From Stentor roeselii (Eukaryota > Ciliophora > Heterotrichea > Heterotrichida > Stentoridae): a DNA stretch of 28,293 nucleotides. The stretch's first letter is position 1. Each line of letters begins with the position of its first letter. A program made the translations under genes and the position numbers. The notes beneath the pieces are model-generated. The model had not been told where the DNA came from. It made no database searches and saw only the letters and a list, made by a program, of their open reading frames with translations. Location: assembly GCA_006503475.1 (NCBI GenBank), contig RSEH01000390.1, positions 1 through 28,293 of the forward strand, in the 5' to 3' direction. Of this stretch, positions 1,634-26,350 are shown piece by piece.

Positions 1634-3094
1634 TTATGGATTAATCCTAACTCTCATTTTGTCATATAATTCTTCATAAACCTTCAATTCCTTGATAATA
1701 TTCTGCATTTTTGTAGGATCAGATTCCTTATCCCTCTGAAATTTAAGATTTTCAATCGCTTTAGGGAGATATCTAGAAATCGTGTATTTTGGTGAAATAC
1801 TGTGCATATCTCTTTCTGCATTGAGTAAGGTAGTTATAAGTTCTTGTTGCTTTGCCTCAAGTGCTTGGAGCAGCTGGGCCTGAGTTGCACCTGGGTTAAT
1901 ATTAAGACCTCCAAGTACGACAGAAATATCTTCTACAGATTTACATGGTTTTTTCCTCATATGAACATGCTGTTGTGATTGGCATCCACAAATTCTGCAT
2001 CTCGCTGTATTTATATTCATACAATAGCAGTTGTTAAAAAAATCAGTATTATTATTTTCATTTAGCTGCAAAGCACAGTCTTCGTGACATAATGTTTTAT
2101 GCTCTATGCAAACTGTACTGTGGTATTCGGTTTTTATCCAGCTAGCGACTTCTAACTGAGTTTGTGGAGTTGATGAATTCAGAGCATTTTTACATTTGTC
2201 TATATTTTCTAAAACTACTTGGAAACTTGCTATTTTTTTCATAATATTGTTATGTTGTTCAAAAAGTGTACTATATTGTGTTGTTGCCTGCTTATTCATC
2301 GTAAAAAGTTTGATTATAAATTTTTTTACTTGTTTTATACTTTTCTCCCAAAACGGAATGTTTTTTTTCATACATTTAGGCTCAATAATTTCATTGTGTG
2401 TAGAACTAAAGGCCAGATTATTTATTTTAATTTTATGCTGAATAGGGAAAGGAAACCAATTATCTTCAAATAAGATATCACCTGAGTAAAAGGTAAATGC
2501 AAGAATAACTTTTGATTCAAAATCTTTTGGAATAATTTGAGCGATTCTCATTAAATTGTATTCAATAATAGGGTTCAGTCTGTTAGTACTTGATTTTTCC
2601 ACAACTACAATCGCATTAAAGTGGCTAATCCTTCTTGCAGCATTAATAATAACACTAACATTGTCATCGTCTTCACTGACTCCTCCAGATGATGCCAATC
2701 CAGGAGTGTCTATAATTAAAATTGTTTTATTTTGAGTCGATGTAGTGTTTATTTTATAAAAATGAGCATAAGTGGTTTGACTTTTTCCTGAACCTGCATC
2801 GTTTCTTTCGTGAAGCCCATCGTCGAATCTTGCATCAATAATCGGGTATGTTTTGCATGCTATTACTGAAATAAGGGTTTCTAAGGTGTTTCCAAGTAGA
2901 ATATTGAATATAGTATTAACAAATGTTGATTTCCCGTTCCCACTTGCACCTAGAAGTAAGATGCTGAAATCAAAAGGGTCGAGTGGCTGATTTGGAAGAA
3001 TAGCTCCTATTGACATTTTTTTTTTATAGTCTATATAATTTTTTATTTGAGGATGAGTGGAAATATCGAAAACACTGTGAAGTCTGACAATCAT
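1634..3094 (-). CDS. AIG1/GIMAP-like P-loop GTPase with Cys-rich C-terminal domain
   Basis: A 486-residue protein in one exon. Visible GTPase motifs: G1 G-A-S-G-N-G-K-S (49-56), a Thr-rich G2 candidate (S-Q-T-T, ~105-108), canonical G3 D-T-P-G (129-132), a weak G4 (V-E-K-S-S, ~165-169) and F-T-F-Y-S-G-D (~197-203), the family's signature segment. Residues ~330-385 are Cys/His-rich and include C-R-I-C-G-C followed by H-x-H, the C-x2-C-x6-H spacing found across this cluster. From memory this resembles the Cys/His domain following AIG1-like GTPases in some fungal and invertebrate proteins. The C-terminus is helical and charged. The canonical G3 makes it the least derived member here. The start at 3094 is favoured because V-F-D-I-S-T-H-P-Q-I-K-N-Y near residue 8 resembles the N-terminus of the vWFA gene at 27410. 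Met27 (3016) is an alternative that would avoid overlap with the divergent gene. Confidence 0.85.
   Translation of the reverse strand: MIVRLHSVFDISTHPQIKNYIDYKKKMSIGAILPNQPLDPFDFSILLLGASGNGKSTFVNTIFNILLGNTLETLISVIACKTYPIIDARFDDGLHERNDAGSGKSQTTYAHFYKINTTSTQNKTILIIDTPGLASSGGVSEDDDNVSVIINAARRISHFNAIVVVEKSSTNRLNPIIEYNLMRIAQIIPKDFESKVILAFTFYSGDILFEDNWFPFPIQHKIKINNLAFSSTHNEIIEPKCMKKNIPFWEKSIKQVKKFIIKLFTMNKQATTQYSTLFEQHNNIMKKIASFQVVLENIDKCKNALNSSTPQTQLEVASWIKTEYHSTVCIEHKTLCHEDCALQLNENNNTDFFNNCYCMNINTARCRICGCQSQQHVHMRKKPCKSVEDISVVLGGLNINPGATQAQLLQALEAKQQELITTLLNAERDMHSISPKYTISRYLPKAIENLKFQRDKESDPTKMQNIIKELKVYEELYDKMRVRINP
3028..3037 (+). promoter_or_regulatory. GTCTATA-type start-proximal motif
   Basis: AGTCTATATA lies 15 nt before the ATG at 3053. 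The same element sits just upstream of five other start codons in this window. Here it lies inside the coding sequence of the divergent gene, which supports the start at 3053. Confidence 0.45.
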
Positions 3095-6000
3095 CTATTT
3101 CAACTCTTTATAGTAGAAGAAAATGATCAAAGCATGCATCAATTTTCAGATTATTTGGTATAAACTAAATAGGGATCTCAATTTACCTTTGAACAATTGA
3201 AATCAAATGCTGATAAAATTTTCAGTTCAAGAAAACAACCAAGGATTTTAAGAAAAGAAGATAATATTATTATAAAACGCTGGGAAGCTGCACATGGAAA
3301 ATGGTATTTGCCCATAGTGTGTTATTTTATTAAATATAATGATTTCATCAAAATAAAATATCTAATTGAAGCAAATCAATATCATACTCTAGTTATATTT
3401 GCTCATAAAAAAGAAAATAATATTGAAAATGTTAAGATAAACTTTAAGGTTAAAGATTTTTTTGAAATTATTTATGACACATCTAGAAATGCTGGAATTA
3501 GTCCTGATGAAAATCAGAAGAAATTTTTGATACAACAATATACATTCTCATCAACATATGCCTTACAGCTTAATAATTCCTTTATAAGATATTATCAATC
3601 AATATCTGATAGAATCTTTGACAATATTGAAAATTATTTTATCATGTGTTTTGATGGATATCATGAATATGTAAATGTTAATTTTGGATCAAATGAACCT
3701 CACCAAAAATTTGAGCCAGACAATTACCTTATTAAAATAGAAGATTGTAATTATTATTCATACAATCCTCAAACTTTTAAAGTTTGTTGGAAAATGTTTA
3801 ATATCGAAAATGGGAAAAATATGATATCCTCCCCTCGAAAATGGCCTTTAAAAGAATATGTATGTTCAGATTGCAAACAATCGAATATTAAGCATATTAT
3901 TAATCAATTTATATTTATTTCACCTGGATATAATTGTCAATTAGATACCCGTTTAATGATCAACCATTTTTGTAGTGAAATTCAAAGTCTCAACAGATCA
4001 AATACAGATCTAAAAAATATACAGTTATCACTCGAAAATAAAATTAAAAACCTTGAAAATGATTCGATATTATCTGAGGATTATAAAACATTAAATCAAA
4101 AGCTAAACCAGAAAGAGGAAATTTGTATGAATTTGGGTGATATAATAAAAAAAAAAGATGAAGATCTTCAAAAAGCAACTGCTTACATTGATCAACTTAA
4201 GACTTCTATGAAAAATTTGGAAGAAAATCTAAAACAAAAAGAGAATCATATAAAACATTCAGAAGAAATCTTCAATCAAAACAAGACTGATTTAAAGAAT
4301 AAACAACATGAAGCTTTATTATCGAAAAAAACAATTGAAGATCAAGAAGATAAAATAGAAATTCACCTTAATGACATTAAAAGGCTTAAAGGCCTATTGG
4401 AGTTAGAAAATAGAAAAGTAAATGAAAAAGATAAAGAATTAAATTCACTTAAGTCCTATTATCAGAATTTGGAAGAAAATCTAAAACAAAAAGAGAATCA
4501 TATAAAACATTCAGAAGAAATCTTCAATCAAAACAAGACTGATTTAAAGAATAAACAACATGAAGCTTTATTATCGAAAAAAACAATTGAAGATCAAGAA
4601 GATAAAATAGAAATTTACCTTAATGACATTAAAAGGCTTAAAGGCCTATTGGAGTTAGAAAATAGAAAAGTAAATGAAAAAGATAAAGAATTAAATTCAC
4701 TTAAGTCCTATTATCAGAAAGAGTTGGCTATTAAAGAAAAATTAAATAACAACCCATTAAACAATTTGAATCAAAAGAAGGAAGAAGACCAGAGACTAAT
4801 CATAGAATCACTTGAATCAAAAATAATAAATCTTGAGAAAAATTTAAAAACTTATGAAATTGAAAACGAAAGATTAAGTAAAGAAAATAGTCAAATTAAA
4901 CAAAAAATATTAGAGCAGCCATCTGAAAATGAAAAATGCTTAACTAAAACTGGATTAAATTCTGTCCCAGATCATAGCCATGAACCATCAGAGGATAATC
5001 AAACCCCTTTCTCTGATAACATATACTTAAATCAGGATAATTCTGAACGAAATCTTCCAGATGAAATACTTGAAAACCCTCTTTTAAATCAGATTGTTTT
5101 CATAGGAGAAGAGGGAAGTGGCAAGACAGCTCTAATTTTAAGAATAATGAATTTTCTATTAGAAAAGAAATTAGGAGAGCATTTAGATATCGATGAATTA
5201 TCAAAACAACATTTTATTTACTGTAAAAAATCTGATTTTGGCATATCATATTATTTCAAACACTCATCGAAACCAGAATATGAATTTATAGAAACAAATG
5301 GGCTAGTACCCTTAAGAGGAAATGCATTAGATACAGATAATATCAATAAGATAATCCAAGCGATTGACTACCTTAGTAAAAAAAATAGTACTATCATTTT
5401 TGTTCAAAAATCTGATTCATACTGGCCATGTATATCAATAATAAAAATCTTCGAGCATATTCTCTCACTAAAACATAAACCAAATGATATTAAATATAAA
5501 ATAATTTTTACTTTTACATTTTATGCAGGGGATTTGATTTTTCTTATGGAAAAATTAACTTTTAAACCCTGCTATAGAATTAAAATCAATATCATTAATT
5601 ACAAGAATATTGATCAAAAAAAAATCGGAAAATTTCAAGGTGAATGGGAAAAGTCTTTAAAAAAAATTAATAAATTACTTGAGAAAATTAATCAAGAATT
5701 TACTGATCAAGAATATATATCACAATTCGATGCTCCTATTCAAGTAGGCCAAAATGAAAAAAAAGTACAAGAATTATTAAATGAATCAAGAGGTCAGTTT
5801 TCAAATTTTCAAGGATTTTCATATGCATCTGACATAATATTTTCTAGCACGTATTTCATTTATTATTCTTTTTATAGTTACAGTTATTTATCATTATCTT
5901 CAATAATAACTATTGATGATGATGAAAAAGAGAAGTCATTTGAGGTCGTTTTAGAATTTTTCAATAAGAGGAATAATTCAAGTACGAGGGCTTATATAAC

Positions 6001-6637
6001 AAATCAAGAAATTAAAACTAATCGGTACAATACATTTGAAAAAAAAGTACTGTATTTAGATAATTCAAAAGAAAAAATTAAATCAATACTATCTAAAATC
6101 AATATAGTTGAGTCAGATAAGTATTTCCTTATAAACATGCAAAAGTCTCAAATTTGTTACAATCTCCTTATATCAGAGTGTACATATCCATATAATTCAA
6201 AATCATGGCCATTAACTTGGTCTTCAAATTGTTCAATATGTGGTAGTTCAATCAATATTCATTATGTGACGTCAAAACAAATACTGAATTATTTTAATAA
6301 AGAAATTTTAACAGATAACTTTAAACAGAAAAATTATGACCGACAAAATGCTCGGGGTGTTCAGCATGTAAGAAATGATGATAATGATTTAATGAATGAG
6401 ATTAAAAAATTTAACGAAGTTACAGAAAAAAAAACTCCTCATCTTTTTTTAATAGATGAAAATCTAAAATTAATACATAAAGTATCACAGAAAGAGGAAT
6501 ATTCATATTTGTCTAAAAAACAGCTGCTGAGTACCCTTAAAAAGTATGAAATTGATAATTTGGATGAAAATAAAAACTATTACATTATAGATGCAAATTT
6601 AATGATGAATGGTAAGGAATGTTTTCAAATAAATTAA
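3053..6637 (+). CDS. Large coiled-coil GTPase with paired C-x2-C-x6-H modules (1189 aa, two exons)
   Basis: Exon 1 is 3053-3157 and exon 2 is 3173-6637, joined across a 15-nt intron. Order of parts: N-terminal region; C-x2-C-x6-H module (C266, C269, H276); coiled coil (~308-617) containing two almost identical 84-residue blocks; low-complexity linker; GTPase domain with G1 G-E-E-G-S-G-K-T (680-687), altered G3 E-T-N-G (742-745), G4-like Q-K-S-D (780-783) and T-F-Y-A-G-D (~815-822); helix W-E-K-S-L-K-K; then a C-terminal module (C1055, C1058, H1065) and an N-Y-Y-I-I-D tail. There are no membrane segments or signal peptide. ATG 3053 is chosen because residues from ~15 (F-Q-L-F-I-V-E-E) align with exon 1 of the genes at 11734 and 17951; ATG 3134 would lose that part. 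Molecular role unknown. The G3 Asp-to-Glu change and Asn at the usual Pro question normal hydrolysis. Confidence 0.85.
3158..3172 (+). other. 15-nt intron
   Basis: GTATAAACTAAATAG, phase 0 with its TAG in frame, between Leu35 and Gly36. It follows F-S-D-Y-L, the position at which the genes at 11734 and 17951 have introns after F-S-F-N-F and F-S-H-H-F. Confidence 0.85.
4214..4717 (+). repeat. Recent 252-bp tandem duplication inside the coiled coil
   Basis: Copies 4214-4465 and 4466-4717 differ, by my reading, at one base (CAC versus TAC, giving His or Tyr in E-I-[HY]-L-N-D). The unit is 84 codons, exactly 12 heptads, so frame and coiled-coil register are both kept. Confidence 0.93.
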
Positions 6638-7025: not shown

Positions 7026-8192
7026 ATGGAAAGATTTTGCTTCACCCGAGGGTGTAAAAACTCTGTTGATTTTTATCATTCAACTTTTAAAAATTTTACA
7101 TGTACAGAGCACCTTGGCACTTATATGATGAATCATAAGATCAAAGATCCAAGTGAATTCCGTCATATAGACGACCTACCTAATTTATACTACTTAGAAA
7201 ACAGGAAAAAAAGAGAAAAACTTCAAGAAAAAATCATAAATTCATCTAGAATGATTATAAAATTAGTTACGAATTGTACAATCAAAGCACTCAATAAAAT
7301 AAGAGATCGATTCAATCAGGACTACAGAATTTTACCTGAGCTAGGTAGTATTGAAATAGAAACTGAACTCTCAGCAAACCAAATTCTAGCTGATTTAAAG
7401 ATCTTTGAATCGATAAAAGAATTCTTTGAAGTTGTTTCAGAATCAAATAAACCAAAAGAATCTGAGAACTCGGCGAATGGAATACAATATAGCCTTAGTA
7501 CTGTTGAATTGAAACCTGAAATAAATAATCCGCAACCAGAATACCAAACAGAAATAATATATAATATAAAGAACATAAGGAACCTTGAGATATCCCTTAA
7601 AGATAAAATGTGTTTAGTCATTGGAGATAGTGGAAATGGCAAGACAACTTTTATCAAGATGATGTGCAACTACTTTAATAAAAGTAATATAGAAGATATT
7701 GGGATAAATTCAAAAATTCTCGATGAATTTAAAGTTACTAATCTATCATTTGACCATGATATTAATCAATCTTATACATATTATAGATTTGAAAATAATG
7801 AAATTTTAGATACAAGTTTCGTTTTAATAGATACTTATTATGAAAAAGACATTAAAGAAAGCATTTTTAATACACTAAAGCAGAATAATCGATACGATTT
7901 TATATTTTTTATAAAGCGATGTGATGAAAACTCCAAGTTTGCAAATGAATGCAAGATGATTTCAAACAATTTGTCTAAGCCTCCATGCTTTGTAGTGGTT
8001 CATTCATTTAACGATGGTAATAACATAGAAAAAATACCAAATACATTCAATATTATAGTTAATCACCGCTTTTTCAATTTATCGGCAAAAAAAATCTCAA
8101 AAAAAAAATGTGAACTGGAAAAGGAATGGTATAATTCAAAGAAGGTTATCCAATCGGCTCTAAATTATATCGAATCAAAATCAAATAGTTAG
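7026..8192 (+). CDS. B-box-like zinc finger fused to a degenerate GTPase domain (388 aa)
   Basis: Residues 1-37 carry C5, C10, H18, C26, H29 and H37, a spacing like a B-box-type zinc finger. A helical segment (~55-130) and a polar linker follow. The GTPase core has an intact G1 G-D-S-G-N-G-K-T (200-207), but G3 reads D-T-Y-Y where D-T-P-G is expected, the G4 region reads I-K-R-C-D, and T-F-Y-A-G is replaced by H-S-F-N-D-G. The closing helix L-E-K-E-W-Y-N-S-K-K matches the W-E-K-S-x-K helix of the family and supports membership despite the weak middle motifs. An in-frame TAA sits immediately before the ATG, and the stop is TAG. It may bind nucleotide without normal switching. B-box fingers usually mediate protein-protein contacts, so an adaptor role is possible; this is inference. 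Confidence 0.82.
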   Translation: MERFCFTRGCKNSVDFYHSTFKNFTCTEHLGTYMMNHKIKDPSEFRHIDDLPNLYYLENRKKREKLQEKIINSSRMIIKLVTNCTIKALNKIRDRFNQDYRILPELGSIEIETELSANQILADLKIFESIKEFFEVVSESNKPKESENSANGIQYSLSTVELKPEINNPQPEYQTEIIYNIKNIRNLEISLKDKMCLVIGDSGNGKTTFIKMMCNYFNKSNIEDIGINSKILDEFKVTNLSFDHDINQSYTYYRFENNEILDTSFVLIDTYYEKDIKESIFNTLKQNNRYDFIFFIKRCDENSKFANECKMISNNLSKPPCFVVVHSFNDGNNIEKIPNTFNIIVNHRFFNLSAKKISKKKCELEKEWYNSKKVIQSALNYIESKSNS

Positions 8193-8339: not shown

Positions 8340-9317
8340 ATGGGAAAATTAATAAGCAAATGCTGCCCTTTTAAAAATATAGGTTCTAATCCGCCACAGG
8401 CGAAATTAGATTCAAAAAGCGTATCAACTAAAAATAATATACAGGATAATTCAGTTAAAGTCAATACTAATAAACAAATTTGCGATGCGATATCAGAAAA
8501 ATCTGATTTATGTAAAAAGAATAACATGATTGAAGTAAAAGAAACTACAAATTTTATTAAGCAGGCTAAAAATTACGACGGTCAAATCATTAATAGTTTG
8601 AATGTTGCAGAAAGAATAAATCAAGCAGATAAAACAATAATTCTTATTGGAGAAGAAGCATCCGGTAAGACTACCTTGCTAAAAATGATACTCAATGCGA
8701 TGGAAGGCAACTCTGTTGAAGAAATACGCTACAGTTCTCATTTAGAAACAGACAAACTCACAGAATGCAACTATTTATTAAAAACAGATGATTATGAAAT
8801 ACCAAAAGACTCAAAACAATTAACTCATACTAAAGGTCTACGATTCTACTATAATGAAAACTTTAAAGAATCATTAGAAAATGATGCTCAAGTAAAAAAG
8901 ATTTTAATTATCGATACACCAGGCTTTACAATAATGAAAGAAAGCATCAAAGATACCCATAGTTTAGATTTATTAAGAAAATCTTTGAAAATTTCTAAAA
9001 ATCCTGTGATAGTTTTCGTGCAAAAGGCTGATTGTAATGGATTCTGTCCCTCGGTCTCAAAATCTTTAGCTGATGTAGCAAAGTTATTAAATAGATATAA
9101 TTGTTCAGTTTATATTGCACTTACTTTTTATGCTGGTACAAAAGTATTTACAAGGGAATTACTTCCATTTGATCAAAGTCTGATAAAAAAAGAGTATTGC
9201 TTTAACAATTTAATATTTTCTTTTGTATCTGACGCTAAAAAACTGAAGAAAATTTCAGCTGTATATGAAAAAGGAATAAAGAAATGTAAAAAGCTCTTGA
9301 GTGATGTATTTATTTAG
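8340..9317 (+). CDS. Small GTPase with predicted N-myristoyl/S-acyl anchor (325 aa)
   Basis: The N-terminus M-G-K-L-I-S-K-C-C fits the M-G-x3-S N-myristoylation pattern followed by adjacent cysteines suited to palmitoylation, so the protein probably sits on the cytosolic face of a membrane. A polar region of ~90 residues precedes the GTPase domain: G1 G-E-E-A-S-G-K-T (104-111), a Thr-containing switch segment ending K-G-L-R-F-Y-Y, G3 D-T-P-G (192-195), G4-like Q-K-A-D (228-231) followed by a conserved F-C-x-S-V, and L-T-F-Y-A-G (~260-265). The closing helix Y-E-K-G-I-K-K-C-K-K-L-L ends the protein, with no Cys/His module. All switch motifs are intact, so it is probably an active GTPase. An in-frame TAA directly precedes the ATG, and the stop is TAG. 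Closest relatives here are the genes at 10075 and 25412. The cellular process is unknown. Confidence 0.88.
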   Translation: MGKLISKCCPFKNIGSNPPQAKLDSKSVSTKNNIQDNSVKVNTNKQICDAISEKSDLCKKNNMIEVKETTNFIKQAKNYDGQIINSLNVAERINQADKTIILIGEEASGKTTLLKMILNAMEGNSVEEIRYSSHLETDKLTECNYLLKTDDYEIPKDSKQLTHTKGLRFYYNENFKESLENDAQVKKILIIDTPGFTIMKESIKDTHSLDLLRKSLKISKNPVIVFVQKADCNGFCPSVSKSLADVAKLLNRYNCSVYIALTFYAGTKVFTRELLPFDQSLIKKEYCFNNLIFSFVSDAKKLKKISAVYEKGIKKCKKLLSDVFI

Positions 9318-10074: not shown

Positions 10075-11166
10075 ATGAGCTTTTTTAGAAAGATTTGCTC
10101 ATGCTTTTTTACAGATGATTATAAAGATAAAGAAAAAACAAAAGAAGATGATCGCGAGGAACATTTTATAAGTGAGAGTTCACCAATGCTTCAAGAAAAT
10201 CCTGAATATTCTGATAAACATATCGTCTCAAGCCCTAAACAAGAAAAATCATATAAGAAAAATGAAGAAATTCTAAAAAAAGACCACCACTCAGATTCTC
10301 AAGATTCATCAAGTTCTTCTAATGACACTGAAGAATTGAAAGCCAACGAAGACAAAGATAAAAAAGATGAAATATGCACAAAAACATCTCCTTTAATCTA
10401 TGATAAAAACGATACAAAAGTAACTCAAATCACCTCAAAAAGTAATCCAGAACCTTTCCCTGAATTAAATTCAGCAGATTCTGTGATTCTCTTATTAGGA
10501 GAAGAAGCTGCAGGGAAGACTTCCTTTGCTAAATTGTTACTTAACACTATGGAGGATAGAACTTTTGAAAACATTAAATACATTTACTCACCAGGGACTG
10601 ATGGAATTCCCGATTGTGAAAGCCAGTTAAAAATCGATGATTTTGAGTTGAATGACTCAAAAAGAACAACATTAACTAGAGGATTAAGGTTTTATTATCA
10701 AAAATATCAGCACCAATCTGAAAATGATGAGTTTGAAGAAAAGAATATTTTGTTAATAGACTCTCCAGGTTTTTCTATTGATAGAAATAGTACAGAAGAT
10801 ATAGAACTCCTTGAAATAATTCATAAAATTTTAGCATTAGTTACAAGGATTACTATATTATTTGTACAGAAGGCTGATTCTAATTCTTTTTGTGGATCTG
10901 TCGCTAAGTCTTTGAAAAAACTCAGTGAAGTGATTAATCAAAAACAATGCCCTGTTTATATTGCTATGACTTTTTATGCTGGTAGCCAAGTATTTTCAAA
11001 GGAAATCTTACCTTTTGAAGAGCATTTAATAAAAAATGAATTCAGTTTTGATAATATCATATTTTCTTTGAAGTCTGATAATGTGAAGTTGAATAAGTTC
11101 GAGAAAAGATACGAAAAGTGTGCTTCTAAATCAAGAAAACTCTTAAAGCTAATCTTAAGTAGTTAA
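10075..11166 (+). CDS. Small GTPase with Cys-rich N-terminal anchor candidate (363 aa)
   Basis: The start M-S-F-F-R-K-I-C-S-C-F-F lacks Gly2, so N-myristoylation is not expected, but two cysteines in a hydrophobic/basic context are candidate S-acylation sites. Residues ~15-135 are a long acidic, Ser/Lys-rich, probably disordered region. GTPase motifs: G1 G-E-E-A-A-G-K-T (142-149), switch segment T-T-L-T-R-G-L-R-F-Y-Y, G3 D-S-P-G (229-232), Q-K-A-D-S-N-S-F-C-G-S-V (from 265) and M-T-F-Y-A-G (~301-306). The protein ends with the family helix (Y-E-K-C-A-S-K-S-R-K-L-L). The segment T-F-E-N-I-K-Y-I just after G1 is identical in the gene at 25412, its closest relative here. All catalytic motifs look intact. 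No in-frame ATG lies just upstream, so this start is the natural one. Function beyond GTP binding is unknown. Confidence 0.88.
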   Translation: MSFFRKICSCFFTDDYKDKEKTKEDDREEHFISESSPMLQENPEYSDKHIVSSPKQEKSYKKNEEILKKDHHSDSQDSSSSSNDTEELKANEDKDKKDEICTKTSPLIYDKNDTKVTQITSKSNPEPFPELNSADSVILLLGEEAAGKTSFAKLLLNTMEDRTFENIKYIYSPGTDGIPDCESQLKIDDFELNDSKRTTLTRGLRFYYQKYQHQSENDEFEEKNILLIDSPGFSIDRNSTEDIELLEIIHKILALVTRITILFVQKADSNSFCGSVAKSLKKLSEVINQKQCPVYIAMTFYAGSQVFSKEILPFEEHLIKNEFSFDNIIFSLKSDNVKLNKFEKRYEKCASKSRKLLKLILSS

Positions 11167-11733: not shown

Positions 11734-14700
11734 ATGATCACAGAACCCGAACAACTTAAACATTTTTTACAAAAAAGCTTCGAAAGCAAGTCAGGATTGA
11801 ATCTCATCATGATAGAAGAATCTAAAGTTTCAAGAGAAGAATTTTCTTTTAACTTTGTAAAACTTATTTAGTTAAATGAACAAGAGTTTAAAGAAATTAT
11901 GCTTATGCCCGAATTCCTGATAGTCGAAGATACAAATCAATTTAGTTATCTAATGAGTTCCCTTAGAATAGAAAATGATTTTTATTTATCATTTTCTTGT
12001 TGTGTGATAAATTTCTGTAACTTTAACAATGAAATGGCAAACTTGATTCAAATGAACACCCAAAAATCCTTTATTGTTTTTATTACCGATCACGATAAAA
12101 ATATAGATGAAAAATATGTCTTGATTGAGAGTTCTTTTAAAACAAAGATCTTGTATCAAAAATATTGGGGAAAAAAAGTTGAGAATTTTTTATCGATTGA
12201 TGAATGTTTGAAGCTGGATGAACAAAATTATGTTTATAAATACAAAAAGGATTTTTTGAATGAATCTAAAGTAATTATTAAAAAAATTATTGAAATAATC
12301 ATTGCTGAGTATCCTGAAATCATTTATTTAACCAAAACATTAAATTATTCATCAAGTGATAAGAATAAATACAGGTATATGGATGAAGTAGATGAATTTA
12401 TCAAAGAAGAATTGAAAAAAGAAAACTTTTATACTAAGGAAAAAGAGGAAGAATATTATTTCTTATACAGTTCTAATTTTAAAAGTCAATGCTTCAAGAA
12501 AAAATTGAACAAAGTGGAAAATAAGATAATTTTCAATCTCCAAAATGTTGATGTTTCAAATAAAGATTGTATTAAGTGCAATGAAAAAATAAAAGATCAT
12601 AAAATTACACAATTCATACTAAAAAAAGTTAATAAAAACGAAATTGGAAAAGAAATAAATAACATCATTTCCAAACTTGAAGAAAGAAATTATTTCTTTT
12701 CAAATGAAAATAAGAGAATAAAAGAGTCATATGAGGAAGAAATTAGTAGATTGAAAAATGAGAATGAAGCTTTGAAATTGAATTGCAAGATAATCTGGCA
12801 ATTGAAAGAAGAAAATAAAGATTTAAGAATTTCGAATCAGAAATTGCAACAATTAACAAATGAAAATGAAAAATTGAGAGATGAATTCAATAATATTTCA
12901 AAAGAATGTGAGACTCTGAAAAACTTAAAAAATGAAAATGAAATCGAAATTAAAAAATTGAGAAAAGAATGCAATACTATTTCAAAAGAATGTGACACTC
13001 TGAAAAACTTAAAAAATGAAAATGAAATAGAAGTTAAAAAATTGAGAGATGAATGCAATTCAATATCGAAAGAAAATAACACACTAAAGAACTTAAAAAA
13101 TGAAAATAAAAAAGAGATTGGAATATTGAAAGATAAATGCGATACTATTTTAAAAGAAAATGACACTCTAAAGATAAAAAACCAAGAAAAAAAACAAACT
13201 ATTATAAAGGTGTTAGGATTAAAGAAAAAATTAAATTTCCAAATAGTTCATATTGACTGCTTAAACATCAATAGTATCAAACTAAAAGATTCAGTTGGTG
13301 AATCAATATCAGAATTTAATGATGAATTTACTAAAAATTCAGATTCAACTGATCAAGATTCTTCATTAAGTCAAGTAAAAATTCAAAATTATCCTGAAAA
13401 AAATTATGATTCACAAGAATTAAATAAAAAAGAAGTTTCTCTTGAAATTTCGAAAAAAATGCAAAATAATTCTGAAAATAACACATTTGAGAGTGACACC
13501 ATATTAAAAACTCCAGATTTTATTGAATCTAAACATGAGATCATTCGTCAAGCAAAAGAAAATCCTCGTCTAAAACAATTAATTTTTATCGGTGAAATCG
13601 GATGTGGAAAATCTTCTTTAATAACTCGAACGATAAACTACTTATTACAAAGAGATATAAATAACCAACTAAATTTAGATATGCTTATTTCAGAACAAAA
13701 AATAATTAAGGTGCAGCATGAATGTTTTGATTCTTACTTTTATATTGATTTAAATAAAGATATTTATTATGAGTTTATTGAACCACCTGGCGTTGAAACA
13801 TACAGAGGAAATATGCTGGATACTGATTCTATTCAAAAGATTATAAATGGGTTAAAGTATTTATCAGCGAATCAAAAATATATTATTTTTATTCAAAAAT
13901 CAGATAATCCTAACTCTTGCGCATCAGTTTTAGAAGTACATAAAAAAATAATTAATCTTTATGAAGAAGGTATGTTAAGAAAATTCCGAATTTTATATGC
14001 TTTCACATTTTATGCTGGTGATTTGGTGTTTTTGTTGGAAAAATTATATATAACACCAATAAAAAAGATTAAAATTTGTTTAAACAATGTGAAACGGCAT
14101 GAAATCAAAGGATTTGAAAAATGTCGGGAAAGCTTTGAAAAATCATACCATAAGATAAAAAGTATGCTTGAAGTTTTAGAATCTGAAATTAATGATGAAG
14201 AGTGTGAAATACAAGTTAGACCATTAAAATTGAATAGAGAAATCGAAGAATCTAAAAAAAATCTTATTAATGAGTTTAAATTTCCTAATTTACCCAATAA
14301 TATTTCGAATGCTTTTTATATTTTCAAAAGGCGCAATTCGCATTCTTTATATCTTCAAGTTAAGATAATCATTGATGAAAACGATCTATATGAATCTCAC
14401 AAACAAATTATTGATTTGTTTAATGAAGAAGATGAAAATAAAAAGAAATTTCTTACGAATAGTAAATTAAATATAAAGATAAAAACCGATAATGCAAAAT
14501 ATAAATATTTTTTTATTATAAATTCAAAGAAAGTCATTCTAGAACATATAAGTAAATTACAAAAGGAAAAATTAGATAAGGTACTCCTAATAAATAAGAA
14601 TGATTTAGTTATATGTCAAGAAATATTATCTATCGAAAATAGTCCATATTCTTCATCATCATGGGAATTCACTGAAAATAATCAGTGCAAGGTTTGCAAA

Positions 14701-15327: not shown

Positions 15328-17085
15328 TTATGAATATAATTTAGTATTGTTTAATATGAAAATAGTATCGGTTATAAAATATTCATCCTCTTCATTTAAA
15401 GTGCAATTCATATCTTCATTTTTCATGCATCTAATAATATCATTATTAGATGTTTGTAAAAGTGAATCCTGTTTACGTGTTTTATACTTCAAATTCAATT
15501 TTCTATCTAATACAAATAGGTACCCGGTATTTTCATGTGTTAATTTTATATCATTTTTTAATACACTATCGAAATCATTAGTATATTTATAAATTTCCTT
15601 TACTTCTGAACTCATTTTCAATGAACTTTCTTTTGTTTCATTATATTGTAACAATTCTTTATCGAGAAAGTCTCTAAATATAAAATCAGTAATAAAATGT
15701 AAATCTATTGATGAGCAACATTTGTCACATATAAGACCATACACCATAGAACCTTCGAAAAAGAACCATGATGATGAAATAAATGGGTTTGAATTATTAG
15801 TTTTCAGCATTTCGGAGCAGATTTGCCTTTTGTCTTTATTAACTAAATAATAATTATTAGTCATTTCAAGCTTAATATTTGTCAAAATCTTTTTAATATT
15901 TTCAAAAGAATTTAGTAAACAAATTGAAATAGTTTGATAGCGTTTTTGTATTACATATGCCTGCATTAATTCTTTATTACTTATATATGGTTTGAATTCA
16001 ATTTTCGTGATTTTATTATAAACAAAAGTTAGTGATTTTTCTTTTTGACTCTTATCAATAATGATCTTGTATTTCAAAGAAAATTTTTTGCTTTTGGGGT
16101 TTAAACAATAAATAAAATAGAATCCTGAAATTTTTTCCTCAAAAATCTTAGTTATTAATAAAATAGATAAAAAACTACCTTTAGAGTCTTTGATACATTG
16201 TTTTAAAATGTTTTTTATTGATATTTCTTGATGTTTTTTAAATTGCTGTAAAAATTTTTCATTTTCGATTTCGTTTTGAATACAGTTAATTATTTTAGTT
16301 ATATTTTTAGTTGATTTTTTCCAAATACGATTTCTTTCTAAGATATGCTTTTCTTTTTGTAACTTTCCATTATAAATCCCTAAATATGTATATAAATCAG
16401 GAGTAAATTTGAGATTTTTGGATTCAAGTATTGAACCTAATTTTGTGAATGTTTCAATATATATCAGTCTGTATCTTATTGCATTTTGATCATTTTGATT
16501 AGTGTTTATATAATTATGAAGTCTCTTCATTAAAACCCTTGTTGTTTCTCCTAGTTTTTCTAAAATTATTATAGTACAGTTTTTTTTACTTAGATATTTT
16601 AAGCATTCTAGGGTATTTGAAATATATTCGCTTTTGAAATAAGGATTTTCGGAAATTACTTCAATAAATTCATAAGAGCCTTCTTCATTATTAAAAAAGT
16701 AAGATTTTCTGTTGTTTGTTTTTTCAATGTAAATATTTTTGCATTCATTAAATCTTTCTATATTTAACTGACTATCTACCGGGTTCTTCAAAAGAGTATT
16801 AAGCATCTGAATCACAAAATTCGTTTTTCCACTACCTGGCTCTCCACATATTAAAACTTGCTTTGAATTATTATCATTTTTCAAAAGTAATTCTAACTTT
16901 GCTCTAATTAAATCAAGTTCTTTTTGCTTTGAATTGTTATATTCGGTAGGATCTATTTCAATTTTGCTTACATCGTTCTTTGTAGTAATATAAAGTTTTT
17001 CGTGTTGAATTTCATAAAAATCATCGCTACTCTCTTTATACCGATATTTATAAGTTTCAAAGCTTTGACTAGTTATCGAATCCAT
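15328..17085 (-). CDS. Pseudo-GTPase with C-terminal C-x2-C-x6-H module (585 aa)
   Basis: G1 is intact (G-E-P-G-S-G-K-T, 81-88), but the other motifs have decayed. The E-F-I-E-[TP]-P-G segment reads E-F-I-E-V-I-S-E-N (~158-166), the Q-K-S-D block reads L-E-K-L-G-E, and T-F-Y-A-G reads E-T-F-T-K-L-G. The rest aligns well with the large proteins: helix W-K-K-S-T-K-N-I-T-K-I-I, F-I-Y-C then K-I-I-I-D, Y-Y-L-V-N-K-D-K-R-Q-I-C, S-S-S-W, C-D-K-C-C-S-S-I-D-L-H-F-I-T, and a tail with E-Y-F-I-T-D. The frame is open and long, so this is a maintained protein, not a pseudogene. It lacks the N-terminal module and coiled coil of its large relatives. It may bind nucleotide without hydrolysis and act as a regulatory partner (inference). 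Its 3' end faces that of the gene at 11734, 183 nt away. An in-frame TGA lies 9 nt upstream of the ATG. Confidence 0.86.
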   Translation of the reverse strand: MDSITSQSFETYKYRYKESSDDFYEIQHEKLYITTKNDVSKIEIDPTEYNNSKQKELDLIRAKLELLLKNDNNSKQVLICGEPGSGKTNFVIQMLNTLLKNPVDSQLNIERFNECKNIYIEKTNNRKSYFFNNEEGSYEFIEVISENPYFKSEYISNTLECLKYLSKKNCTIIILEKLGETTRVLMKRLHNYINTNQNDQNAIRYRLIYIETFTKLGSILESKNLKFTPDLYTYLGIYNGKLQKEKHILERNRIWKKSTKNITKIINCIQNEIENEKFLQQFKKHQEISIKNILKQCIKDSKGSFLSILLITKIFEEKISGFYFIYCLNPKSKKFSLKYKIIIDKSQKEKSLTFVYNKITKIEFKPYISNKELMQAYVIQKRYQTISICLLNSFENIKKILTNIKLEMTNNYYLVNKDKRQICSEMLKTNNSNPFISSSWFFFEGSMVYGLICDKCCSSIDLHFITDFIFRDFLDKELLQYNETKESSLKMSSEVKEIYKYTNDFDSVLKNDIKLTHENTGYLFVLDRKLNLKYKTRKQDSLLQTSNNDIIRCMKNEDMNCTLNEEDEYFITDTIFILNNTKLYS

Positions 17086-17950: not shown

Positions 17951-20900
17951 ATGATCAACAATTGTATGGAACTTCAAGACTTTTTCAATAAAAACCTTCA
18001 TTCAAACTTAGAGATTGTAATTGTTGATCAATTTAGAGAAGGATACCAGCAATTTTCTCATCATTTTGTAAATTTTATTTAGAAGGAACTTTTAGAAGAT
18101 CCAGAAGGGCTTGAAAATTGTTACGAGCGAAATATTCAGACAGTAAGAAGAAACACATCTGAGTTCATATTCACTTATTTTGAAAAAGAATCCTTAGTGC
18201 TACCATTTTCTCATTACTCAATTGAGTATTCGAAATTTGATAACGAGCTTGCTGAAATGATTATTAAGAGACAGGAGTGTGTAAAGGTATTTATTATTTT
18301 TATATATGATTACCAACAGCATGTATATAAAAAAATTGAACTCTTGAAAGAACAAGTAACTCATTATTCTATTGCCTATATTGCTCCTAGTATAAATTTA
18401 TATTATGAATACTCAGTTATTGATTGCAAGGGAACTGATACAAATTCCATAATAAATTTTAAAAAAAGTTGCAATTATATAATTAAGTCTATTTTTGACA
18501 AAATACTGAAGGAAATCATTATTGATTCTTCTCAAGCAAATAATTTACAGATCAGTCCAAAAATCGATGATGATGCCTTGACAAATAAATTCAATAATTT
18601 GATGATGCAAGAATTCGAAAAAAATATACTCTTTATAATAACAAAAGAAAATTACTTTAACCTATATGGATGTAATAAAGATCCTTGCTTGAGATTTGAA
18701 ATAAATGAAAAAAATGCTTTCAAATTTATTACTTTAAATGAATCATGTGAAATATGCAAAGGTAAAATTACTGAGCATATAATTTCACAACTTGTATTAA
18801 AAGAATGTAAAACTACTGAAGAAAAGTATGAATCAATTCAATATCTCAAATCGAAAAAATTAATTTTTACGAAGTCAAAGCAATATAAAAGTCAAAAGAA
18901 AATAGATGAGACTTATATAAATAATTTACGCTCAGAAAATGAACTCTTAAAAAATGAAAATAATAGGCTCATTGAAACAATTTCGAAAAATAATGAAACA
19001 AACTCTGAAAAGGATATTGAAATAAAAAAATTGAATGATCTAAAGAATAAATTAGAAGAAGATTTAAAAAAGAAAGACATTGAAATACAAAAAAAAATTA
19101 TAGAAAAAGAGAAAGAAATTAATCTTAAAGCAAAAGAAATAGAAGAACTGAATGAAAGTATTAAAATTGCTGATATTAATAAAAATAAATTCAAAAATTT
19201 ATCTGAAAAAAAGGATTTAGAGTTGAAAGAAAAAACTAAGGAATATTCAAACCTTCTTAGTAATATGAATAAGTTAGAGAAGGATAGAAATCAAGAAGAC
19301 TATGAAAAATTTGAATATAAGAAAGAAGTAAATATTCTGAACGAAACAAAGGATAAGATGACTAAAGATATTGTTCAATTGACACAAAACCTAGAAAATG
19401 AAAAACACAAATCAATAGAGAAGGACACGGAAATAAATTGTATGAAGGATGAATTATTAAAAAATAAATCAGAAATTGAAAAATTGAATCAAGACAATAT
19501 AACCTTAAGGAATAAATTTAAAGAATTGGAAGACAAATTTTATTCAAAAGTTGAAGAATTTGAAGTATTAAATAAAAAATGCTCGGCATATGAGAATGAG
19601 AACAAAAAATTATTGGAAGATTTAGAAAATTTTAAAAATAAATCGCATGAAGATGTGACATCCAGACTTGATAATAAATGTATGAATACCAAAACCAATA
19701 TCTTAGAAAAAAATCCTATAGATGAAGAATTAAAATCATTGAATAATACAGAATCATTTAAAATCGATGGTAAAACAAATTTCTCTATTGAGAGCCTCCC
19801 AGCAATATATTACTTCTGGAACCACACCACAGAAGGAGAAAATAATAATATTGTACTTTCACAGCCTAATCAAGTAAATGGGAAAGATCTAGATAATATA
19901 GAAAAACATGAGAGTGATCATTTACCTGAATCTCTCAGTAATAATAAACCAGAAAATAACTCACTTTCGCAGACTAATAATAAAACTAACCTGGAGAGTT
20001 TGGGCACCTTTGAAACTAAAAGGCAAATTCCTAAAGAATTTAAAGAACACCCTGATCTAAAGCAGTTTCTTTTTATTGGAGAAAGTGGATGTGGGAAAAC
20101 TAGCTTTATAGCCCTTATAATCAACCATCTATTAAATAATCAAATCGAGAACTTATTAGATATTCATAAACTTATAAATGTGCACCAGGTCTACTACGAA
20201 GAAAATAGTTTTGGCGTTTCTTATTATTTAATTGACGAAACAAATAATCATTTTTATGAATTTATCGAAACTCCTGGAATTATCCCATTACTCGGAAAAT
20301 CATTAGACAATCAAAATATTGATAAAATCTTGGAAGGGATAAACTACTTATCAAAATCGATCAGCAATATAGTATTTTTGCAAAAATCTGATTCATATAA
20401 CTCTTGTATATCACAAATTGAGATTTACAACAAAATTATTGAGTTTAACATAAGTGGAAAATTAATAAAATCAAGAATAAGTTTTGTTTTCACGTTTTAT
20501 GCAGGAGAGATGATATTTATCATAGATAATTTAAGTATCACTCCTAATTTTTGGATTAAAATTAATAATCCAAATCTTCTTAAAATTGAGAGAAATAAAT
20601 TGAAAAAATTTGAGGATGTTTGGGCCAAAAATATGAAAATCATAACAAAAATTCTTAAAAAAACTGATACTGAAATAGAACCTGAAGAATTTTGTAATCA
20701 ATTCAAACCAAAGATAAAAGATAACTCAACACTTATTAATTCAGATATTGAAAAAGTTATGAATACTAGAACTAAATCTTCTAATTTCATTAACCAGCTT
20801 CCTGAAGATATAAAATCAGAAATCCTTAAATCTAGAGAATTATTAATCAAATTTTATAAAACGGAAAACATATTTGATATCAGCTACTCAGATTCTTTTT

Positions 20901-21670
20901 TCATTTATGCTCAATTAGGAAATGAAATAAGATTAAGTAAAAAAATAATCATTAATGATAAACAACTAGACAAATCATATAAGGATATTTTGATTGAATA
21001 TAATAATGTAAAGAAAGGAGAAAACAAATATATATTTTACTTGATAAATGTTTTATTGGAAGTTAAACTCGTAAATAAATTCAAGCAGGTTCTTTATTTC
21101 CTCTCTAATTCTGAAGTTCAGCAATATTTGAGCCAAATAACTGAAGAAAAGACTAATTGTTATTACCTTATAAGTAAGTTGAATAAAACAATATGCCAGG
21201 AGAAACCTTATGATGATCAAAATAATCAATGGTCTGCAAAAAAAAAGAAAAAGAATACAGTGTGCTCAGTATGCGAAAAAGGCAGCCAGGATCATTTTGT
21301 AGCAAACTCTATATTCAAAGATAAAGATGAAAATCTACTTTTTAAAAACGATCTTAAAAAAATCAATAAGAAACAAAGTAATAATTATTTAAATGTTGAA
21401 TTCAATCAAGATATTACTAGGAAACAAGTTCAAGAAATTTTTACAATAAATGGGGAGGATCAAGATTATTATATAGTTTTAAATAGCAAATATCAAGAAA
21501 TTGCAGCTGTAAAAAATAAGAAATCTGTAAACTTTAATTCGAAGCAAGAACTTCTTTTATCAATAAAAAATATTGACACAAATTTCGAGTACAACAATTC
21601 TGAAGAGTATCATATTATAGACTGTTATTACAAATCATCATTCAACAATTACTACTTTAAAGGTAAATAA
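17951..21670 (+). CDS. Large coiled-coil GTPase with paired C-x2-C-x6-H modules (1234 aa, two exons)
   Basis: Exon 1 is 17951-18067 and exon 2 is 18083-21670. The in-frame TAG at 18080-18082 is the 3' end of a 15-nt intron; without splicing the frame has no nearby downstream ATG that keeps the N-terminal region. Layout: N-terminal region; module 1 (C261, C264, H271); long Lys/Glu-rich coiled coil (~300-570); Asn/Ser-rich linker (~580-680); GTPase domain with G1 G-E-S-G-C-G-K-T (705-712), G3 E-T-P-G (768-771), Q-K-S-D (806-809) followed by Y-N-S-C-I-S, and F-T-F-Y-A-G-E; a F-I-Y-A then K-I-I-I-N-D block; module 2 (C1100, C1103, H1110), preceded by Q-W and a Lys run; and a Y-H-I-I-D tail. The coil is the longest in the cluster and lacks the near-identical repeats of its sisters. 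It is divergent from the pseudo-GTPase gene at 17085. GTP binding is likely; biological role unknown. Confidence 0.9.
18068..18082 (+). other. 15-nt intron
   Basis: GTAAATTTTATTTAG, phase 0, after F-S-H-H-F (codon 39). Its TAG is in frame, so removal is required to join the two open parts. Confidence 0.93.
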
Positions 21671-22303: not shown

Positions 22304-24154
22304 TTAATTATTCTTTGATATTTGAGAACATATCACTTCGTCTCTGTCTTTTTTTATGAGACTGGGTATGAGTTCTTTACTTGTTATGTAATAATTTTGA
22401 TTTTCTAAATTTTCAATGATACTTAAAATGTTTTCAAACGATTCTTCTTTATTATCCTCATCAATTTTTATTTTGCGGAATTCCACGAAATCATATTTAT
22501 CAATTATATCATATATGAAAAAAAAGCATGGTGAAAAGGCATAAGGTTTAAATAAGGTAGAAATAATAATTTCACTATTAATCAATTCAGGAAAGTGTTT
22601 TTTCTTAAAATCTTCAACTTTTAGATCCATTAATAATCTTTTTTCTGATTCAACTAGTAATAATTTAATTTTTTGTTCTTTCGGATTTTTGAATTGAAGG
22701 TAAAATTCAGCACAAGAAATAGAATTTTTAGAACGATTGATGAGTTTCGAAATCTTCAAATTTGTTTTATTCAAATTATTTATCAATGAATCTTCTATCC
22801 GCATATTTATCTTTCTAATATTTATATTGTTTAATTTGAAATAAAGATTGGGAACGAAGTTAAGTTCTTCGAAATTATACGATAAATCACCTGTGTAGAA
22901 AGTAAAAACCATGAATATCCTAATTTTTTGAGTATTTTGACACATAAGAAAATGATTTAAAATAATAGAAACGGATGATGAAAATATAGAATCATTTGAT
23001 TTTGAAACAAAAACAATATTACTATTTTTTGCCTTCATATAATTTATCGCTTCAAAACATATATTTATATTTTTTGTATCAATACCTCTTCCAGGCATTA
23101 GAATCAGCCCAGGTGTTTCTATAAACTCATAAAATTCAAGACAATATTCTTCATCTCGGCCCGAATAATAGTATGATTTACCAAAGTTATGATTTTCAAT
23201 ATATACATTATTGGCTGGAGTTAGATCTTCTATACTTAAATAATCTTCGATAGTTCTTCTCATAAGAAAATTTAAGATTGTAAGAATCAATGAGGTCTTC
23301 CCATTTTGATTATTTCCTATAAAAATAAATTGTTTAAGAGCTGGATTATTTTTGAATTGAGTTAAAATTTTTTGTACTCCTTCATTATTTTTATCAAAGA
23401 GTAAAGAATCAGTTGATTGTAAATTTTCGCGATTATTTTCTGGAATAAGTATTATATCTTGATTTTTAGATAATTTTTGGAAATACTCAGAATTTGCTGA
23501 TTTTTCTGAAGTTAGATTATCTGAGAAAAGCGGGTTAAATTGTTTTTCAAATTCTTCACATAAGGGAACTTCAAATTTTTGTTTAATTCTCTTCATTTCA
23601 ATATCAAATTCTGCATTTTTTTCTTCTAAAGATTTGTTTTTTTCTTCTAATTTTTCTATCCTTTCTTTCAAAATTTTATTTTGTTTTTCTGTTTCCTTCA
23701 ACATTTTCCCGATATTATTATATTCTAAAATCATTTTTACTCGTCTTTCTTCTGTTAGTAGTTTTAATAAGTTTTGTGTATCACTTTTATAAAATCTAAG
23801 AACTCTTAATTCATGTTCATTATTCTCTTTTTCCATTAAAATAAAATGTAAATTTTGATTAAGTTTATTAATTTCATTTTTAAGTCCAATTATTTCTTCT
23901 TCTTTCTGATCCAAATTTTGTTTATATTTATCAATCATTCTAAATATTTCATTATCTTTGGTTTCAGCGTCTATTTTTATTTTTTTTAAAGTAGACTCAA
24001 GCTGATAGCACTTCATTTGGTAATCCTCTAATTGATTTTTCAAGGAAATATTTTTTAAACGTTCATATTTCAAGGTTTCTTCTGATTTATTCACATTTTC
24101 TAAATCATCATGTTTGACTAACACAGGTAAATTTTCAAGACAATTTTCACTCAT
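22304..24154 (-). CDS. Coiled-coil GTPase with shortened C-terminus (616 aa)
   Basis: A coiled coil at ~25-200 is followed by a linker and a GTPase domain with G1 G-N-N-Q-N-G-K-T (280-287), G3 E-T-P-G, a weakened G4 block (V-S-K-S-N where sisters have V-Q-K-S-D) and F-T-F-Y-T-G-D. Relative to the large sisters it lacks the N-terminal region and the first Cys/His module. After the GTPase domain it keeps F-F-F-I-Y, K-I-K-I-D-E-D, K-E-E-S-F-E and Y-Y-I-T-S-K-E-L, then jumps over about 40 residues to K-K-D-R-D-E-V-I-C-S-Q and ends at N-N, just before the point where sisters encode S-S-S-W and C-x2-C-x6-H. Internal deletion plus early stop suggest an eroding C-terminus, though the rest of the frame is clean. 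An in-frame TAA lies just upstream of the ATG. GTP binding is likely; hydrolysis uncertain. Confidence 0.87.
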   Translation of the reverse strand: MSENCLENLPVLVKHDDLENVNKSEETLKYERLKNISLKNQLEDYQMKCYQLESTLKKIKIDAETKDNEIFRMIDKYKQNLDQKEEEIIGLKNEINKLNQNLHFILMEKENNEHELRVLRFYKSDTQNLLKLLTEERRVKMILEYNNIGKMLKETEKQNKILKERIEKLEEKNKSLEEKNAEFDIEMKRIKQKFEVPLCEEFEKQFNPLFSDNLTSEKSANSEYFQKLSKNQDIILIPENNRENLQSTDSLLFDKNNEGVQKILTQFKNNPALKQFIFIGNNQNGKTSLILTILNFLMRRTIEDYLSIEDLTPANNVYIENHNFGKSYYYSGRDEEYCLEFYEFIETPGLILMPGRGIDTKNINICFEAINYMKAKNSNIVFVSKSNDSIFSSSVSIILNHFLMCQNTQKIRIFMVFTFYTGDLSYNFEELNFVPNLYFKLNNINIRKINMRIEDSLINNLNKTNLKISKLINRSKNSISCAEFYLQFKNPKEQKIKLLLVESEKRLLMDLKVEDFKKKHFPELINSEIIISTLFKPYAFSPCFFFIYDIIDKYDFVEFRKIKIDEDNKEESFENILSIIENLENQNYYITSKELIPSLIKKDRDEVICSQISKNN

Positions 24155-24178: not shown

Positions 24179-24180
24179 CA

Positions 24181-25411: not shown

Positions 25412-26350
25412 ATGAGCATCAGAAAATTTTTAGAATGCATCTGTTGCAAAGAAGATCATGAATCTGATACTGATAAGGAACTTATAATAAAACCAAGCTC
25501 TAAATACTCTCAAATTAGTAAAGAAAATGAGTCTAAACAGGTAAAGACCGAAGAGGAAACCAAATATAATAAGCATATACATGAAAAATTTGATCATAGA
25601 TTAAACAAAGGTAAGTTAAACATCGATGAAAGCATTTACTGGAAATTAAAAGAAGCAGATACAATTATTCTTATCATTGGAGAAGAGGCATCAGGTAAAA
25701 CAACTCTAGTAAAAACTCTTTTAAATGCAATAGACAATACGACTTTCGAAAATATTAAATATATTTTTTGTCCTAATCTTGACTTTTTGCCAAATTGTGA
25801 TCAACTACAATCAACTAAGCATATGGAATTAAATTCTGATTCAAGAAGAACAAATTTAACAAAAGGATTAAGATTTTATTATCACACAGATTATATTAGT
25901 TCAAATAAAATGATATCACAACCTAAAAAAGTTTTGATAATTGATACTCCAGGAATTTTAATTTATAAAGGTGAGGAAGTTGATATTGAAACAATAAGCA
26001 TGATCAAGCAAGTACTTGATTTATTTGAAAAGATTAGCATATTATTTACAAAAAAATCGGATGAATTTGGGTTCTGTGGGTCTGTATTGAAGTCTTTAGA
26101 TATCCTTGCTCCCTATATAAATCTTAAAAAGCATCCAGTTTATACGGCATTGACATTTTACCCAGGTTCTAAAAATTTTAATAAGTATTCTCTTCCTTTT
26201 GATAAAACTCTTATCAAAGAAGAATTTACTTTCAACAATATAATTTTTTCTATGAAAAATAATGAACAGAAAGCGAAAAATAATATAGAATTTTTTAATA
26301 AAGGGAATAAAAAAGCAAAAAAACTTATAGATTTAACTTTAACAAATTAG
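25412..26350 (+). CDS. Small GTPase with Cys-rich N-terminal anchor candidate (312 aa)
   Basis: The N-terminus M-S-I-R-K-F-L-E-C-I-C-C has three clustered cysteines, a candidate S-acylation anchor without a myristoylation glycine. A polar segment of ~65 residues leads to the GTPase domain: G1 G-E-E-A-S-G-K-T (90-97), switch segment T-N-L-T-K-G-L-R-F-Y-Y, G3 D-T-P-G (178-181), G4 T-K-K-S-D (213-217) followed by F-G-F-C-G-S-V, and L-T-F-Y-P-G (Pro for the usual Ala). The closing helix F-N-K-G-N-K-K-A-K-K-L-I ends the protein. T-K-K-S-D is the closest thing to a textbook [NT]-K-x-D G4 in the cluster and supports guanine specificity for the family. Most similar to the gene at 10075. An in-frame TGA lies just upstream of the ATG; the stop is TAG. 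Probably an active membrane-attached GTPase; partner unknown. Confidence 0.88.
   Translation: MSIRKFLECICCKEDHESDTDKELIIKPSSKYSQISKENESKQVKTEEETKYNKHIHEKFDHRLNKGKLNIDESIYWKLKEADTIILIIGEEASGKTTLVKTLLNAIDNTTFENIKYIFCPNLDFLPNCDQLQSTKHMELNSDSRRTNLTKGLRFYYHTDYISSNKMISQPKKVLIIDTPGILIYKGEEVDIETISMIKQVLDLFEKISILFTKKSDEFGFCGSVLKSLDILAPYINLKKHPVYTALTFYPGSKNFNKYSLPFDKTLIKEEFTFNNIIFSMKNNEQKAKNNIEFFNKGNKKAKKLIDLTLTN

Follow-up and report, generated by a model that had tools for sequence, protein, structure and literature searches.

What does it mean that a single contig of a ciliate genome carries a run of GTPases whose cores are alike and whose attachments differ from gene to gene? This question is addressed here for contig C334, the whole of which (28,293 bp, hereafter the window) was analysed, in a genome of 44.4 Mb and 522 contigs. 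Ten long open frames, designated G1 to G10, lie at 1634-26350. We show that the state of the active site in this family is sorted by the build of the protein, which is the main new fact, and that the cluster is larger than the one described earlier. As a tentative reading, which falls a little short of probable, we propose that the window forms one end of an extensive tandem cluster of AIG1/septin-related TRAFAC GTPases, diversified into types that would form mixed assemblies with a division of labour. C74, C358, C494, C233, C338, C502, C161 and C11 denote other contigs of the same genome, "cluster" stands for C334, C74 and C358 together, and X is an additional GTPase subfamily. The genes of the window are the following.

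3..251, forward strand: C-terminal part of what is probably an eleventh GTPase gene (subfamily X), truncated at the contig start; C-x-C...H at 63-92
1634..3094, reverse strand: G1, core, then Cys-rich module (1961-2116); 56% identical to C74:49387-50739
3053..6637, forward strand: G2, exon 1 3053-3157, 15-nt intron 3158-3172, exon 2 3173-6637; N-domain, CxxC-x6-H (3863-3895), coiled coil (by eye), core (5054-5722), C-domain, CxxC-x6-H (6230-6262)
7026..8192, forward strand: G3, N-terminal Cys/His stretch (7038-7112), very divergent core without DxxG
8340..9317, forward strand: G4, MGKLISKCC N-terminus (putative myristoylation/palmitoylation), core with canonical G1 and G3 boxes
10075..11166, forward strand: G5, Cys-cluster N-terminus, core with canonical G1 and G3 boxes
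11734..15144, forward strand: G6, exon 1 11734-11856, 15-nt intron 11857-11871, exon 2 11872-15144; built as G2, modules at 12568-12600 and 14686-14718
15328..17085, reverse strand: G7, pseudo-GTPase (P-loop kept, G3 box lost), C-domain, CxxC-x6-H module (15697-15729)
17951..21670, forward strand: G8, exon 1 17951-18067, 15-nt intron 18068-18082, exon 2 18083-21670; built as G2, modules at 18746-18778 and 21263-21295
22304..24154, reverse strand: G9, coiled coil (by eye), core with Glu in the G3 box, shortened C-terminus, without CxxC-x6-H
25412..26350, forward strand: G10, MSIRKFLECICC N-terminus, core with canonical G1 and G3 boxes

The sorting emerges from a motif table of 32 cluster cores aligned with the six canonical AIG1 proteins of the genome; this table and the tree discussed below omit C74:74606, C74:86565 (one stop), C74:3-674 (cut by the contig end), C11:146166 and other broken pieces on C74 and C358. 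The P-loop GxxxxGK[ST] is intact in 28 of the 32 cores. The Asp of the G3 box is kept in all nine Cys-rich, all six acylated-type and both X cores, and is replaced by Glu in each of the 11 coiled-coil cores examined, which also have no switch-I Thr, a column that rests on the alignment alone. It is missing from all three pseudo-types, two of which have a damaged P-loop as well, and one of the three (C74:90132) has Glu at this position, like the coiled-coil type. A pseudo-GTPase core, which the original prediction had recognised, is indeed present in G7, where the P-loop is kept and the G3 box lost; the core of gene G3 keeps Asp-Thr without DxxG. The window genes can accordingly be arranged as (i) putatively N-terminally acylatable proteins with canonical G1 and G3 boxes (G4, G5 and G10), (ii) a Cys-rich-module protein, likewise with canonical boxes (G1), (iii) long coiled-coil proteins, most with CxxC-x6-H, with the Asp of DxxG changed to Glu and without the switch-I Thr (G2, G6, G8 and G9), and (iv) pseudo-GTPases (G7 and probably G3).

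It had also been proposed that QKSD/QKAD is the G4 box. In models of G1 and G2 (mean predicted local distance difference test score, pLDDT, 60 and 80), which run through beta-1, P-loop, alpha-1, beta-2, beta-3, alpha-2, beta-4, alpha-3 and beta-5, beta-4 ends in QKSD/EKSS and beta-5 in T-F-Y-A-G. Moreover, TFYAG aligns on the TKWD of canonical AIG1, and the earlier assignment was therefore misplaced: the QKSD motif ends strand beta-4, and T-F-Y-A-G occupies the G4 slot. There, [NT]KxD occurs in none of the 32 cluster cores, which thus have no AIG1-like TKxD-type G4, versus TKWD in six of six canonical AIG1 proteins.

Since the active-site state is sorted by build, a division of labour is suggested, and the earlier idea of a GTPase scaffold becomes more specific. 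In such an assembly, the acylated members would sit on the membrane and the G domains would pair when loaded with GTP; the coiled-coil members would hold nucleotide with little hydrolysis and act as extended cross-linking arms, with putative zinc modules that hold partners; turnover would be supplied by the Cys-rich and acylated members, and the pseudo-GTPases would cap or regulate. A stronger version, which we consider quite improbable, is that the build-fixed classes and pseudo-GTPases make up an obligate mixed membrane machine, in which the Lys found after beta-4 in 29 of the 32 cores perhaps replaces the trans-acting finger of Toc/GIMAP dimers.

With regard to the attachments, CxxC-x6-H flanks the core on both sides in 8 of 14 long or pseudo-type genes (G2, G6, G8, C74:51043, in which the second module has x7 instead of x6, C74:57664, C74:67087, C74:92289 and the pseudo-type C74:70484); only the second module is present in G7, C74:43656 and C74:90132, and only the first in C74:61061. 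G2, G6 and G8 have an extra N-terminal exon upstream of the 15-nt intron, an addition to the earlier gene models. The Cys-rich module of the G1 type ends in CxxCxCxxxxHxH and is degraded in some copies. Six architectures had been counted, a number that stands if G3 is included and falls to five if it is not; no B-box was among the Pfam matches listed for the G3 N-terminus, HMMER filters dropping most matches above E 0.1. A receiver-like (CheY-like) N-terminal domain of the long proteins, suggested by eye from a first strand and a later Asp, was dropped: a profile of ten such domains found no receiver up to E 10 in the PDB (31 matches, mostly ribosomal protein uL18), and Pfam gave five scattered single-member matches. 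Within the coiled coils, a 252-bp unit is duplicated in tandem at 99% in G2 (4214-4719) and an 84-bp unit is repeated 3.7 times at 82% in G6 (12858-13169). On C358, a single frame of 1177 amino acids (1755-5285) holds two G1-type cores, the first with a Lys-to-Met change in the P-loop, and recalls the multi-core GIMAP8.

Are these proteins truly of one kind? Nine related GTPases had been predicted, and all-against-all blastp joins all but G3, mostly with E below 1e-5, the pseudo-GTPase G7 entering through G2 (1.6e-32) and G8 (9e-19). G3 gives P-loop-level matches only by BLAST; it is matched by the core profile (E 2e-6, profile positions 7-219, among 240 frames) and, profile against profile, it matches the Cys-rich type at 97.1% over 181 columns. 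Nine genes are thus secure and, by profile, a tenth is probable; a close second copy of G3 was looked for in the genome and none was found. An eleventh gene is probably represented by the C-terminal fragment at 3-251, whose best blastp match among 60 proteins is the C-terminus of C74:47632-49038 (E 2.7e-4, composition correction off), with which it has a C-terminal motif in common. Chance likeness among unrelated P-loop proteins is excluded by the blastp network, the G3 profile match and the profile-profile comparison, and these links support the earlier view of one GTPase family with mixed attachments.

The cluster reaches far beyond the window, as seen in genome searches whose match counts are lower bounds and do not equal genes one to one. 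The G4 core has at least 29 matches (seven on C334, 17 on C74, four on C358 and one on C494), 28 of which lie on three contigs of 161 kb, or 0.36% of the genome, and the core plus C-terminus of G2 has at least 21, all on the same three contigs, so that the tight clustering implied by the comparison with GIMAPs is confirmed. G1 has at least 46 matches; among them are dispersed relatives on C233, C338, C502, C494, C161 and C11 as well as, on C358 and C74, broken copies interrupted by many stops. Most of the dispersed GTPases (C233, C338, C502, C161 and C11) consist of a core and a C-terminal Cys-rich module, as G1 does, and stand outside the cluster with one or two genes per contig; the long coiled-coil type was not found on these contigs in the searches with G4, G2 and G1. 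C74 starts inside an X-type gene of opposite sense with its N-terminal part only and, judging from the X-type fragments at both ends, reversed C74 and C334 may be neighbours across a short gap.

As to family, we assign the core to the TRAFAC GTPase fold on the AIG1/septin/Toc side (the "paraseptin" lineage), the exact branch being assigned with low confidence. In comparisons of hidden Markov models (HMM-HMM), the Cys-rich type matched C161/C11 at 99.4%, canonical AIG1 at 98.1% over 138 columns, septins at 93.7% over 80 and dynamins at 90.4% over 151, and the coiled-coil type matched C161/C11 at 96.7%, canonical AIG1 at 89.4%, septins at 39.9% over 25 columns and dynamins at 38.9%. GIMAP2 and Toc came first in Foldseek for the G1 model, with a GBP1 structure at rank 28, and septins and Toc lead the PDB sequence matches of the G1-type profile, at the P-loop; the window core profile (best E 2.9e-4 against PDB sequences) and the NCBIfam search gave generic P-loop matches only. 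Two cluster relatives, C74:89099 (28.2 bits) and C358:11723 (29.6 with its neighbours), pass the Pfam AIG1 cut-off (PF04548, 27 bits). The Septin cut-off (PF00735, 26.2 bits), for which 14 control prokaryote genomes yielded no passing match, is reached by C74:65662, C358:17795, C358:11489 and the dispersed C161a and C502. Among the ten window proteins, two (G1 and G4) pass the MMR_HSR1 cut-off, none reaches the Septin cut-off (best G1, 21.3 over the P-loop region) or the Dynamin cut-off (PF00350, 27 bits; best G1, 16.4), and GBP (PF02263) is not among the families listed for any of them, weak matches being filtered out. At E 0.01, 14 G1-type proteins matched MMR_HSR1 (14), AIG1 (11), Dynamin_N (10), RsgA (9) and Septin (8). 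No confirmed relative of G1 was found among viral contigs.

Several results weigh against this placement and against the reading built on it. None of the ten window proteins reaches the AIG1 cut-off (best G1, 24.6), which is itself unspecific, being also crossed in 8 of the 14 control genomes, and relatives cross the cut-offs of different families (C161a AIG1 and Septin, C161b AIG1, C233 Dynamin_N, C502a RsgA). With septins or dynamins as the query, HMM-HMM scores for the coiled-coil, acylated, Cys-rich and X types rise to 85.0-96.7% (septin to Cys-rich 96.7% over 28 columns, septin to coiled-coil 91.5% over 26, dynamin to acylated 93.3% over 135), the septin-query matches being mostly short; since canonical AIG1 itself matches dynamins at 96%, the discrimination of such comparisons is limited. 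By VIA, EF-Tu tied with Toc33 for the low-scoring G1 model (mean pLDDT 60; 13.6 vs 13.7), and EF-Tu came first in the fold search with the G2 model. Among the builds, CxxC-x6-H is wholly absent from G9 and C74:98695, and some frames with partial modules may be incomplete; just one of the two X cores has the switch-I Thr; and acylation is putative, as judged from N-termini of which three of six start with Met-Gly (G4, C74:54275 and C74:84501), the rest carrying just nearby Cys (clustered in G5 and G10, less plainly so in C74:55349). Because the window misses the AIG1 and septin cut-offs and relatives cross those of several families, we name the proteins AIG1/septin-related, not AIG1.

The history of the family bears on other explanations. 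In an IQ-TREE tree of 46 cores, all from this genome, good support was obtained for the Cys-rich cluster type (100/99), the acylated type (99/100), the coiled-coil type with the pseudo-types (100/99) and X (100/99), and the acylated, coiled-coil and Cys-rich types each have members from both C334 and C74. The tree bears on the expected monophyly only in part: the cluster is not shown as one clade that excludes the dispersed genes, because the Cys-rich type is joined by genes from outside the three contigs (96/91). C494 was placed with canonical AIG1 (95/90), though matched by the G4 core at E 9.6e-14; deep forks are open (14 of 43), and G3 and G7 are on long branches. An unlikely explanation is a weakly constrained multigene family, perhaps subtelomeric, that turns over fast, with mostly redundant members and builds that arose mainly by duplication and decay. 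The broken copies and the telomere repeats at one end each of C358 and C11 point that way, as does the ratio of nonsynonymous to synonymous rates (dN/dS, by NG86), which at 0.20-0.59 in ten cluster pairs exceeds in eight of them the top value of the comparators (one dynamin pair 0.14, three canonical AIG1 pairs 0.13-0.26) and hints at fast or relaxed change in the cluster, all values being only rough since dS is near saturation in most pairs and YN00 mostly failed; dispersed pairs gave 0.78 (C161a/C11) and 0.28 (C233/C338). Decay of this kind is argued against by the long open frames kept at 31-54% identity in the ten pairs, by the sorting of active-site classes by build and by the 15-nt intron, which stands at a matching place in six of 14 long or pseudo-type genes.

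Somewhat less probable still is a GIMAP-like cell-autonomous defence or self/non-self locus directed at intracellular bacteria or viruses, in which an arms race keeps paralogues diverse. Clustered paralogues, raised dN/dS and broken copies are what such a locus would show, and C358 and C334 end in stretches that are 94.7% identical over 1031 bp, next to which their GTPase genes differ; however, these two contigs could be alleles, paralogues or a product of assembly, the dN/dS values carry the roughness already mentioned, and no immune partner domain was seen. We judge a septin-like cytoskeleton of the cortex or membrane, with the coiled-coil GTPases assembling into cortical filaments or a lattice, to be improbable: all window proteins stay below the septin cut-off and the coiled-coil cores match the septins of the genome poorly in one direction (39.9% against 91.5% reversed, over 25 and 26 columns), although coiled coils adjoin septin-related cores, septins lead the solved-structure matches of the Cys-rich profile at the P-loop, and the genome has just two strong septin matches, yet cluster and dispersed relatives reach that cut-off. 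There is a slighter chance that the cores bind a different nucleotide or none and have lost GTPase function, as the absence of [NT]KxD from all 32 G4 slots would suggest; the P-loop is nevertheless intact in 28 of these cores, C161a, C233 and C502a share the altered G4 and still pass the MMR_HSR1 cut-off, and unusual G4 boxes are tolerated in other GTPase families.

The mixed-assembly reading invites comparison with the vertebrate GIMAP/IAN genes, which form a tight cluster of related GTPases with anchored and unanchored members and a human pseudogene, and for which membrane scaffolds have been proposed (PMC8201404). By analogy, membrane scaffolding might be the role of the ciliate proteins. 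Unlike GIMAPs, the window proteins fall below the AIG1 cut-off, have lost the TKxD-type G4, include a class with Glu in the G3 box, carry acyl-type N-termini with no transmembrane anchor noticed, and comprise coiled-coil and CxxC-x6-H proteins. Such modules are also not known from Toc33/Toc34, the import receptors of plant plastids. Septins, many of which carry coiled coils, are related GTPases and form hetero-oligomers; they differ in that the window stays below their cut-off, though some cluster relatives reach it, and in that the HMM-HMM matches are mostly short. AIG1 and Toc have been termed 'paraseptins', and a recent expansion of septins, a different family, has been suggested in Stentor coeruleus (PMC11238149). 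No description of such a GTPase cluster in ciliates was among the papers listed by searches of open-access literature, in line with what had been supposed. If the reading is true, clustered and specialised GTPases of the AIG1/septin kind are not confined to plants and animals, and a ciliate has evolved its own set, with coiled-coil, zinc-module and pseudo-enzyme partners; it would be an independent case of how such GTPases divide anchoring, catalysis and scaffolding among themselves, in cells big enough for imaging, and clear biochemical predictions follow from the way active-site classes are sorted.

The DNA appears to come from a heterotrich that uses the standard code. The introns of three genes are each exactly 15 nt long (G2, G6 and G8: GTATAAACTAAATAG, GTAAAACTTATTTAG and GTAAATTTTATTTAG), C358 starts with telomere repeats of the CCCTAACA type and C11 ends in TGTTAGGG, with 19 copies in the final 280 bases. 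The heterotrich Blepharisma has introns of 15-16 bp and CCCTAACA telomeres and reads UGA as Trp (PMC9942806). A heterotrich-type source is thus borne out by introns and telomeres. In the loci examined, TGA is the stop of five of 50 distinct frames of at least 300 amino acids, and at least one of these, C74:43656-46052, ends at the natural end of the family, which makes Blepharisma an unlikely source; intron size, telomeres and TGA stops all fit. On C11, C161, C233, C338 and C358, family members are found no more than about 8 kb from a contig end; of these ends, those of C11 and C358 have telomere repeats and none were seen on C161, C233 and C338.

Some further features of the window deserve mention. 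G1 probably starts at 3016, not 3094, since paralogues start at the matching place and 3094 would overlap exon 1 of G2; the two genes are head to head at 3016-3053, with 36 bp between the probable starts, and a shared promoter is possible. At the other end, a gene at 27410-28291 with the motif CFCIDGTGSMS, which we take to be VWA-like, is cut by the contig end and has no Pfam match at E 0.01. A 95% copy of it lies at C358:22064-22950, where C358 ends at the same base, and diverged partial matches occur at C74:63758-64216. Finally, a 75-bp array of 3.7 copies stands outside the long frames at 976-1251, and DNA 76-80% similar to it is found near the end of C358.

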